NCBI RefSeq assembly: GCF_000685275.1
Contig: NZ_ARYK01000006.1
Coordinates: forward strand, 62,001-126,000
Origin: Hyphomonas johnsonii MHS-2
GTDB taxonomy: Bacteria > Pseudomonadota > Alphaproteobacteria > Caulobacterales > Hyphomonadaceae
Reading direction: 5' to 3'
Length of the DNA: 64,000 bases
Part shown: one piece after another, positions 51,682-53,539 of the stretch
Numbering within the stretch: the first letter of the stretch is position 1
Layout of the letters: each line of letters opens with the position of its first letter
Position numbers and translations under genes: made by a program
Notes under the pieces: generated by a model
Database searches by the model: none
Told to the model about the DNA's origin: nothing
Seen by the model: only the letters and a program-made list of their open reading frames with translations

Positions 51682-51708
51682 TGTCACAAATCCGGAGGCT
51701 GTTTCGTC
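51682..51708 (+). promoter_or_regulatory. ECF41-type promoter of the sigma-factor operon
   Basis: TGTCACA (51682-51688), exactly 16 bases, CGTC (51705-51708). This is the promoter described for ECF41 sigma factors in front of their partner genes. It stands directly upstream of an operon that ends with an ECF41-type sigma gene, so the sigma factor most likely drives its own operon. Confidence 0.82.
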
Positions 51709-51735
51709 ATGGAGGCAGCAAGAAGGAGAAAGCCC

Positions 51736-52122
51736 ATGTGGCGCGTGATATTGTTTGCGATAGCGATACTGAATTTCGTGCTCGCTGCCTATTTGTGGTT
51801 CGCACCGCATGCCTGGTATGAGGGCACGCCCGGCGTTGCGATGATGGGGCCGTTCAACCTGCATTTCATCCGGGATGTGGCACTGGCCTACCTGGCCAGT
51901 GCGGCGGCGCTCGGCTGGGGCGCCTGGAAGCGCGATGTCACGGCGGCCGTGTTCGGCGCGGCCTGGCCCTGTTTCCATGCCCTGTTCCATGTCTGGATCT
52001 GGCTGGGGCGCGGTGTGCCATTCGATGAGATCGCGCTGGTCAACCTTGTCGGCATCCAGGTGCCGGCCTGGCTGGCCCTGACGGCGGCCCTGCAGTTTCA
52101 GTCCGGGCGGGCGGGTCGATGA
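51736..52122 (+). CDS. Small four-helix membrane protein of the ECF41 operon
   Basis: 128 residues with four hydrophobic helices (MWRVILFAIAILNFVLAAYLWFAPHAWYEG then LAYLASAAALGWGAW, VFGAAWPCFHALFHVWIW, VNLVGIQVPAWLAL). I do not recognise the family with certainty; it is DoxX-/DUF4345-like in look. The start at 51736 is set by AAGGAGA with six-base spacing; an upstream in-frame ATG (51709) falls at the predicted transcription start. ATGA overlap with the next gene. Confidence 0.72.
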   Translation: MWRVILFAIAILNFVLAAYLWFAPHAWYEGTPGVAMMGPFNLHFIRDVALAYLASAAALGWGAWKRDVTAAVFGAAWPCFHALFHVWIWLGRGVPFDEIALVNLVGIQVPAWLALTAALQFQSGRAGR

Positions 52123-52661
52123 TCCGCTGGTTCCTGAACAGGCAGGCGCGCGCATTCGGCCGACGCTACGATTATGACACGGCCTACATGCATGACGTGA
52201 TCAACGCGGCGCCGAAAGCAGGCATGCGCATGGCGGCGTTCCCTTATGCGACCGGCTTTCGCGGACCACCGGAGGCGGGTGAGGTTGTTGCCGGCGCCAT
52301 GCTGGCATCGACGCTGGACGGTGATTGCGGGCCGTGCGCGCAACTGGTTGTCGACATGGTCACGCAGGCGGGTGGCGACCCGGGAAAGCTGAGGCTGTGT
52401 GCCGAGGGCATGGATGCAGAAGCTGGTGATGTCGGCATGGGATTTCGCTTTGCGAAAGCGGCGATCTCCGGTGATCCGCTGGCGGATGACTTGCGCGCCG
52501 AGATCGAAGCCCGGTTCGGGAAGGAGGCGGTCATCGCCGCAGCGTTCGCGGCAGCGACGGGGAGGTGGTATCCTGTGTTCAAACGCGGCCTGGGTCACGG
52601 CGCAGCCTGCACACGGCTGCGGTTCGGTGATCGATCAGTGAATGTGCTCACGGTGTCATGA
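52119..52661 (+). CDS. AhpD-like/carboxymuconolactone-decarboxylase-type protein with CxxC
   Basis: 180 residues. The helical segment LDGDCGPCAQLVVDMVTQAGG contains a CxxC pair where AhpD-fold proteins have their redox cysteines, followed by the usual AAFAAATGRWYPVFKRGLGHGAAC. The match to AhpD is by motif and not by full alignment. In other bacteria ECF41 sigma genes are nearly always next to a carboxymuconolactone decarboxylase, oxidoreductase or epimerase (COE) gene, and this fills that place. Overlaps both neighbours by ATGA. Confidence 0.7.
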   Translation: MIRWFLNRQARAFGRRYDYDTAYMHDVINAAPKAGMRMAAFPYATGFRGPPEAGEVVAGAMLASTLDGDCGPCAQLVVDMVTQAGGDPGKLRLCAEGMDAEAGDVGMGFRFAKAAISGDPLADDLRAEIEARFGKEAVIAAAFAAATGRWYPVFKRGLGHGAACTRLRFGDRSVNVLTVS

Positions 52662-53539
52662 ATACGGCGACGGCGATCTTCGAGGCGGAACGACCGAAGC
52701 TGACCGCGCTCTGCTACCGGATGCTGGGTGAGCAGGCCGGCGCCGAGGATGCGGTGCAGGACACGTGGTTGCGGTGGTCTGCAGTTGAACCTGATGCGAT
52801 TGACAATCCGGCGGCCTGGTTACGCCGCGCAGCGACGAATATTGCGATAGATGCCCTGCGATCGGCGCGCGCCAAGCGGGAGGTCTATCCGGGGCCGTGG
52901 CTGCCCGAACCCCTGTTTCACGGTCAGGCGCAGGACGCTGGTGCGCGGTTCGAAATCGCACAGGAATGCGAGCTGGCATTGTTGTGGGCGATGGAGCGCC
53001 TGAGCCCTGCCGAGCGCGCGGCCTTTATCCTGCGCGAAGCATTCGATGCAGGATATGACGAGATCGCGGCGACGCTTGGAAAGTCGCAGGCGGCGTGCCG
53101 GCAACTGGTCAGCCGGGCGCACAGGCGCCTGCAGGAAAGCGGTCCGCGCTTCGACGCGCCGAACACCCAGGTGCGTGAATTGATCGCCCGGTTCCTGGCG
53201 GCTGTCGCCAATGAGGATTTCGAGACCGCCACCCGGTTGCTTGCGCCTGATGCCGTTGCGATCAGCGATGGCGGGCGCAAGGCGCGGGCGGCGCTGCGCC
53301 CCCTGATTGGCGCGGAGGAAATCATAACCGTGTTCGCGTCGGTGATGCGCAAATCCGGCGCCGAGGTTGGCTGGCGGCTGGAGATGGCAAAGGTCAATGG
53401 CGCACCGGCACTGGTGCGCTGGCTGGGAGGGCGGGTGGACATGGTGCTGACGCTCTCGCCGGACAGCGCCGGGCGGATTGCCTGGTTCTACATGATGCGA
53501 AACCCCGACAAGCTGCAGGGTGCGCCAGCCTACCAATAG
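52658..53539 (+). CDS. ECF41-group RNA polymerase sigma factor with fused SnoaL-like C-terminal domain
   Basis: 293 residues. Sigma region 2 (about 8-75, ALCYRMLGEQAGAEDAVQDTWLRW, AAWLRRAATNIAIDALRSARAKR) and region 4 (about 105-160, ALLWAMERLSPAERAAFILREAFDAGYDEIAATLGKSQAACRQLVSRAHRRL). The linker GPWLPEPL and, in the C-terminal NTF2/SnoaL-like domain, DGGRKARAAL and NGAPALVRWLGG are the ECF41 signature motifs. The fused domain takes the place of an anti-sigma factor. Last gene of a three-gene operon with an ECF41 promoter. Confidence 0.93.
   Translation: MNTATAIFEAERPKLTALCYRMLGEQAGAEDAVQDTWLRWSAVEPDAIDNPAAWLRRAATNIAIDALRSARAKREVYPGPWLPEPLFHGQAQDAGARFEIAQECELALLWAMERLSPAERAAFILREAFDAGYDEIAATLGKSQAACRQLVSRAHRRLQESGPRFDAPNTQVRELIARFLAAVANEDFETATRLLAPDAVAISDGGRKARAALRPLIGAEEIITVFASVMRKSGAEVGWRLEMAKVNGAPALVRWLGGRVDMVLTLSPDSAGRIAWFYMMRNPDKLQGAPAYQ

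Follow-up and report, generated by a model that had tools for sequence, protein, structure and literature searches.

Between positions 51682 and 53539 on the forward strand, the window (the whole 64,000-nucleotide stretch of the Hyphomonas johnsonii MHS-2 genome that was analysed) contains a three-gene operon that belongs to an established regulatory class, that of the ECF41 group of extracytoplasmic function (ECF) sigma factors. We assign a probability of roughly 80% to the reading that it is an autoregulated variant ECF41 operon, in which the first two genes encode a membrane-tethered thiol-redox module. The features on which the argument turns are given below.

51682–51688, + strand: −35 element TGTCACA of an ECF41-type promoter, a pattern match kept at homologous operons (motif from PMC3426412)
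51705–51708, + strand: −10 element CGTC at a spacer of 16, a pattern match
51723–51728, + strand: AAGGAG, the likely ribosome-binding site of gene 1, 7 bases 5′ of the ATG at 51736 (read from the sequence)
51736–52122, + strand: gene 1, open reading frame (ORF) for a 128-residue protein with four predicted membrane helices
52119–52661, + strand: gene 2, ORF for a 180-residue DCGPC protein
52323–52337, + strand: DCGPC motif of gene 2 (residues 69–73, with CGPC at 70–73; read from the sequence)
52658–53539, + strand: gene 3, ORF for an ECF41-group (SigJ-like) sigma factor of 293 residues with a C-terminal SnoaL-like extension
52886–52912, + strand: YPGPWLPEP in the sigma2–sigma4 linker (residues 77–85; read from the sequence, ECF41 linker motif per PMC3426412 and PMC7730460)
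53267–53281, + strand: DGGRK in the C-terminal extension (residues 204–208; read from the sequence)
53501–53515, + strand: NPDKL near the C-terminus (residues 282–286; read from the sequence, ECF41 motif per PMC7730460)

Both gene joints are ATGA overlaps. The sigma factor scores 302 bits against the SigJ model NF007214, above the cut-off of 271, and 301 bits against TIGR02957, below the cut-off of 323. Its Sigma70_r2 and r4_2 domains exceed the Pfam cut-offs, and SnoaL_2 falls below (23.8 versus 27 bits). The match to Mycobacterium tuberculosis SigJ (5xe7; E 2.8e-45) nonetheless extends through the SnoaL-like domain, such that sigma2, the WLPEP linker, sigma4 and the extension align end to end. 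The extension also carries DGGRK, the ECF41 consensus being DGGGK. The protein thus combines sigma2, sigma4 and a long C-terminal extension with the WLPEP linker motif that characterises ECF41 (PMC3426412, PMC7730460) and with NPDKL, an ECF41 extension motif absent from SigG1 of group ECF56 (PMC7730460); the target promoter of the group is present in the sequence at its own operon. It is the only ECF41 match in its genome, the next two matches reaching 28 and 27 bits over the sigma core only. An original prediction, made from the letters of this DNA, had described a tight three-gene operon with ATGA overlaps that ends in an ECF41 sigma factor with a fused SnoaL-like domain and the linker and C-terminal motifs of the group. 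The ORF coordinates and both joints agree with this, the motifs were found, and the SigJ alignment spans the fused domain. In published cases, an ECF41 factor activates transcription from its partner gene's promoter, and its activity is modulated by the extension (PMC3426412); RpoE9 of Sinorhizobium meliloti is an ECF41 factor that acts likewise (PMC6180224).

The published ECF41 target promoter is TGTCACA-N16±1-CGTC (PMC3426412). At 51682–51708 on the + strand, the window reads TGTCACAAATCCGGAGGCTGTTTCGTC, which is TGTCACA-N16-CGTC with a spacer of exactly 16, and this is the sole exact match in the window when spacers of 14 to 18 are allowed. Taken alone, the match is weak evidence, since 11 of 100 shuffled versions of the window hold at least one (0.11 exact matches expected). 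In the organism's own genome, spacers of 15–17 give 5 exact matches versus 3 for a reversed control pattern, and spacer 16 alone gives 3 versus 0; the other copies were considered as possible additional targets. The −10 element and the ATG at 51736 are separated by 27 bases, one fewer than the 28 of the original prediction, which had otherwise placed and described the element correctly. A second in-frame ATG for gene 1, at 51709, lies immediately 3′ of CGTC. It is an unlikely start: it abuts the −10 element, and in homologues a methionine aligns with 51736, which was the first position of the query itself.

The comparison of homologous loci is what carries the promoter. Gene 2 was searched in a class sample of 289 genomes and found in 23; in each of these loci we scanned the 250 bases 5′ of the first gene together with the first 20 bases of that gene. 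The exact element occurs at spacer 16 in 17 of the 23 loci, and the remaining 6 have one mismatch at the same spacer. Across 16 other spacers (8 to 24) there is one exact match in total, at spacer 13 in locus L041, and it is an echo of that locus's own spacer-16 site. Control stretches inside gene 2 gave no match with 0–1 mismatch at spacer 16. The spacer itself has a preferred composition at positions 11–13, three bases before CGTC (51699–51708 in the window's element), where C is found in 15, T in 14 and G in 18 of 20 sites; L041, L047 and L051 were left out of this count, as another register scored equally in them.

A second sample, of 61 genomes from the genus and order, gave a concordant picture. 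Gene 1 is present in 16 of these genomes at 17 places, the three-gene operon occupies 14 of the 17, and all 14 have the exact element. Four other genomes of the same genus lack gene 1, and in these the element directly precedes gene 2 and the sigma gene. On the sigma tree they form two pairs, each grouping with a gene-1 operon, and two losses of gene 1, with the promoter retained, are therefore probable. The match therefore stays before whichever gene heads the operon, and the comparison gives the predicted window promoter strong support; that an ECF41 promoter stands at the operon head had been proposed from the window alone, and the same exact element is now seen before homologous operons in many genera. 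Examples of the exact element with the complete three-gene operon are L007 (a Rhodobiaceae metagenome-assembled genome), L009 (Rhodobacteraceae Alg238-R152) and L010 (an uncultured Shimia); three further loci examined with them carry gene 1 without the rest of the operon. L007 also has a second copy of gene 1 (L007:679–1050, 53% identical to that of the window) approximately 3 kb upstream of its operon. On a plasmid of Rhizobium sp. BT03, the annotation lists genes 1 and 2 as hypothetical proteins; they match our profiles at 2e-36 and 3.3e-48, and follow an element with a spacer of 15.

The element is also found apart from the sigma gene. It precedes genes 1 and 2 in G324 and gene 2 in G269, with no adjacent sigma gene in either; in both genomes the ECF41 gene is located elsewhere, next to its own carboxymuconolactone decarboxylase (CMD) gene, and gene 2 in these two cases looks like a target in trans. 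Beyond the gene-1 operons, nine further regions of the genus were inspected, of which 4 are gene-2 operons and 5 are not. Among these 5, the site in G003, a same-genus genome (C20:25600; L136:1601–1627), has an exact promoter ending in CTGCCTCGTC, as at other operon sites, before a small gene. Those of G012 and G016 end in CTGCATCGTC, and no ORF of at least 100 residues starts within 600 bases downstream of them.

We then consider what the promoter controls. Gene 1 encodes a protein with four hydrophobic stretches, and its structural model consists of 4 long helices (predicted local distance difference test score, pLDDT, 87). Residues H43, F44, D47, H81 and H85 are invariant in 33 aligned sequences. 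The window protein reaches no Pfam cut-off, the closest being DUF4345 at 16.4 bits against 26.5, and among the 33 homologues 3 match DUF4345 and 3 match DUF6790 at E up to 0.1. A profile search of the Protein Data Bank (PDB) returned no match, and in the literature on DUF4345 nothing bearing on gene 1 turned up. The protein therefore resembles DUF4345 and DoxX-like proteins as a small multi-helix membrane protein, but it lies below every Pfam cut-off and has its own set of invariant residues. We also considered whether gene 1 could be an artefact of frame calling or an accidental neighbour; its conservation as a protein, the promoter in front of it and the fusions described below rule this out.

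The distribution of gene 1 ties it to gene 2. Its profile finds 22 places in 20 of the 289 class genomes, and 16 of 398 phylum genomes, all of them of the same class. By coordinates, 14 of the 22 places adjoin gene 2. Gene 1 is the leading gene in 13 of the 20 gene-2 ECF41 operons of the class sample and in 0 of the other 27 ECF41 loci (Fisher p 5.5e-7, with no correction for kinship). The original prediction had set gene 1 apart from the usual C, O and E partners and had proposed to search ECF41 operons for the first two gene families. That search bears out the distinction, and adds that gene 1 is no isolated case: it accompanies gene 2 repeatedly and, in another family, is fused to it. In G226 and G337, gene 1 directly precedes a canonical CMD gene and follows an NmrA-like gene; in G226, the genome to which the Pfam annotation of these neighbours applies, a short-chain dehydrogenase (SDR) gene comes after the CMD gene, and 14 kb around this C, E and SDR set contain no ECF41 match and no promoter with 0–1 mismatch. 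At six other gene 1 places of the class sample, no gene 2 was found alongside. G470 has gene 1 alone directly before the sigma gene, with the exact promoter in front and no gene 2 between.

Other neighbourhoods of gene 1 and its homologues deserve mention in their own right. In G470 (L157:1–3354, the same as L164), a second exact promoter, divergent from the first, faces a metallo-beta-lactamase-fold gene (PF00753), which may be another ECF41 partner. In G023, of the same genus, a SnoaL_2 gene with a signal-like N-terminus (L128:2390–2926) lies directly before a gene 1 homologue, with no ECF41 gene or promoter; its domain belongs to the same family as the extension of the sigma factor. G713 has gene 1 homologues at L182 and L194, near ORFs that weakly match the gene-2 profile (probably CMD) and with divergent ECF41-type promoters; in L194 the sigma gene follows gene 1.

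Gene 2 is probably a remote member of the AhpD-like/CMD superfamily. When homologues were scanned singly, 13 of 36 matched CMD (PF02627) at E up to 0.1, the best at 6.2e-5. A profile of the 36 sequences finds Atu0492 in the PDB (E 7.2e-5) with the CxxC aligned, and weakly matches the CMD ORF in 8 of 27 other ECF41 loci, the best at 8.9e-11 in a very small search set. The structural model (pLDDT 74) is helical except for two short strands, and a Foldseek search places Atu0492 first (E 0.59, probability 0.91). In the AhpD-like proteins compared in one study, both cysteines and a His at second Cys+4 are kept; AhpD itself also relies on a Glu located 12 residues ahead of the first Cys (PMC3141380). 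Neither relay residue is found in gene 2: among 49 sequences (36, plus 13 from the fusions below), none has the His, and none has the Glu at that fixed offset. CGPC is present in 46 of the 49, and Cys164 is an additional conserved cysteine. Both relay residues are present in two canonical CMD proteins, SMb20029 and that of G337. With the relay His and Glu missing and CGPC as its motif, gene 2 constitutes a distinct CGPC branch, and its sequence indicates that it is not a catalytic AhpD. CGPC has the same letters as the thioredoxin active site, where the full motif is WCGPC; a thioredoxin fold with WCGPC was not found in gene 2, whose model is helical, and the two share the letters CGPC alone. 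Relative to Atu0492, PA0269 and M. tuberculosis AhpD, gene 2 is therefore alike as a helical CxxC protein with weak profile and fold similarity, and different in the absent relay, the CGPC motif and the extra cysteine. Of the label "CxxC AhpD-like", which the protein had been given from its letters, the CxxC holds and the likeness persists weakly at the level of fold, and the catalytic relay that the name might imply is absent.

Comparison with other ECF41 loci shows which partner is exchanged. Approximately 30% of known ECF41 genes have no C, O or E partner gene alongside (PMC3426412). Of the 49 class-sample genomes with ECF41, gene 2 adjoins the sigma gene in 20. G152 and G285, also among the 49, were left out of the comparison of the rest, their sigma genes being at contig edges, as is gene 2 of G285. 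At the 27 other ECF41 loci, CMD genes, called by a profile built from three CMD proteins, are adjacent in 21, 1.6 kb away in 1 and not found in 5. By gene content and position, gene 2 substitutes for the canonical CMD partner in the operons that carry it. A sigma tree of 67 rows requires at least 5 changes of the CGPC label and at least 4 of the CMD label; L027 and L048, which are cut short, were excluded from it. Alignment A3 excludes L048 (a stop inside gene 2) and L051 (C-terminal frame lost), and A4 excludes L011 and L025 (frame lost). The arrangement is otherwise that described, in the accounts consulted, for RSP_0606–0607 of Rhodobacter sphaeroides and SMb20029–rpoE9 of S. meliloti: a promoter of the TGTCACA-N16-CGTC type, a gene for a thiol protein before the sigma gene, and a long C-terminal extension. 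In S. meliloti, however, a canonical CMD (CxxC...H with the upstream Glu) stands directly behind the promoter and there is no gene 1, whereas the window operon has the CGPC protein and a membrane protein in place of that CMD. SMb20029 was considered as an orthologue of gene 2 and rejected, being a canonical CMD; a tblastn search of plasmids with gene 2 returned 5 records (4 Rhizobium, 1 S. fredii) and none from S. meliloti.

The functional link between the first two proteins is suggested by natural fusions. In G537, genes 1 and 2 form a single open frame, and the same fusion occurs in 13 of 249 genomes of that genome's family, spread over 6 genus codes, with matches to nearly the whole query and no stops. 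As the other 12 are 47–99% identical to that of G537 and the frame stays open across this divergence, a sequencing slip is not the cause. HF..D, H...H and the C-terminal Cys are kept in all 13, and the thiol motif is CGPC in 12 and CGSC in 1. Conservation of the fusion argues that proteins 1 and 2 act together. After the last helix, the fused proteins have a basic linker, for example ARQRIAP; by the positive-inside rule, according to which basic residues mark the cytoplasmic side of a membrane protein, this suggests that the thiol domain is cytoplasmic.

Taken together, these data lead us to propose that the operon is likely autoregulated by its own ECF41 sigma factor. The factor would be kept inactive by its SnoaL-like extension, which is recognised here at the level of motifs and whose mechanism is taken from other ECF41 proteins. 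Upon a signal, it would guide RNA polymerase to 51682–51708 and transcribe all three genes, its own included, thus creating a positive loop. As the conserved fusions indicate, genes 1 and 2 would form one functional unit. Its membrane part would be the four-helix protein, in which a His/Asp cluster is conserved; its thiol part, the CGPC protein whose fold is probably AhpD-like, may lie on the cytoplasmic side of the membrane. The most likely activity of the unit is thiol-disulfide redox chemistry at the membrane, and such a module could remove the inducing signal. More speculatively, and we regard this as doubtful, the pair might be an undescribed membrane thiol oxidoreductase, in which electrons possibly pass between a quinone or a metal in the membrane, at HF..D / H...H, and the cytoplasmic CGPC pair on its AhpD-like scaffold; its mode of working would be likened to that of DsbB- and VKOR-type systems, to which it is unrelated. 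Occurring as a two-gene pair under ECF41 or fused away from ECF41, it would then be what ECF41 operons of this type chiefly serve.

Several observations weigh against the autoregulated thiol-redox interpretation. The gene 2 protein of the window has no Pfam match at E up to 1, PF02627 included, and in the Foldseek ranking CMD and AhpD chains are intermixed with unrelated designed helical proteins; given these weak scores, the AhpD-like fold of the model is likely, not certain. Foldseek found no convincing fold match for gene 1 (best E 0.39). Gene 1 is absent from 9 of the 23 class-sample gene-2 loci and from the 4 same-genus operons, and by this comparison it is dispensable in the operon. The 13 fusion loci show no promoter with 0–1 mismatch and no ECF41 gene in flanks of approximately 1.5 kb (3–5 kb for G537), which makes control of the fused unit by an adjacent ECF41 factor improbable. 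One-mismatch promoter matches are not peculiar to spacer 16, with 6 there, 8 at spacer 11 and 7 at spacer 13, and the 6 loci without an exact element therefore count for little. Published ECF41 mutants had no oxidative-stress phenotype in the results consulted (PMC3426412). Finally, a co-directional pyridoxal-dependent decarboxylase gene (PF00282; 50165–51658) ends 23 bases before the −35 element, and no terminator was found between it and the promoter, so read-through is possible.

The last of these points, with the pattern's appearance in 11 of 100 shuffles, would be accommodated if the promoter match had arisen by chance and the operon were transcribed from the upstream gene or from a promoter that we do not see. 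We consider this very improbable: homologous operons across many genera are preceded by the identical exact element, and a tblastn search with the decarboxylase gave no match at homologous loci outside its own genome, in flanks limited mostly to approximately 1.1–1.5 kb or 4 kb. A different division of labour is conceivable, with gene 1 acting on the sigma factor as a membrane-bound regulator, anti-sigma-like or a sensor, and not as part of an enzyme unit. Its membrane protein is indeed encoded within a sigma operon, and in G470 it directly precedes the sigma gene with nothing of gene 2 between. Yet the 13 genomes with gene 1–gene 2 fusions have no ECF41 gene in the fetched flanks, gene 1 of G226 keeps company with CMD, NmrA-like and SDR genes without ECF41, and sigma operons of the same genus that lack gene 1 keep the promoter. 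In addition, for the two ECF41 sigmas of one study nothing pointed to another protein with an anti-sigma role (PMC3426412), and a regulatory role for gene 1 is accordingly improbable.

It is also unlikely, in our estimation, that gene 2 acts as a standard peroxidase partner of the AhpD type, with gene 1 as a mere anchor. The PF02627 matches of 13 of the 36 homologues, the profile match to Atu0492 and the weak matches to CMD ORFs at 8 of 27 other ECF41 loci would all agree with it. But the relay His and Glu occur in 0 of 49 sequences, where CGPC occurs in 46, and the five invariant residues of gene 1, four of them polar, exceed what an anchor needs. We thus favour the reading in which genes 1 and 2 are a joint thiol-redox unit placed under the control of their own ECF41 factor.

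In the literature searched, we found no description of gene 1 as a recurrent ECF41 partner, of the gene 1–gene 2 fusion or of the CGPC branch; gene 1 may figure as a hypothetical gene in Figure 2 of Wecke 2012, which depicts hypothetical genes that have the promoter or lie between these genes (PMC3426412). The founding study of ECF41, in the text consulted, reports no reproducible phenotype and leaves the signal open (PMC3426412). ECF41 factors are widespread, and the target here is a protein pair that natural fusions show to be functionally linked. As the His/Asp cluster in the membrane and the CGPC pair can be mutated and assayed, the purpose of ECF41 would become a testable biochemical question. 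A promoter that remains fixed at the head of the operon, combined with the few partner changes between the CGPC and CMD types that the sigma tree requires, may further provide a compact case of regulon rewiring.

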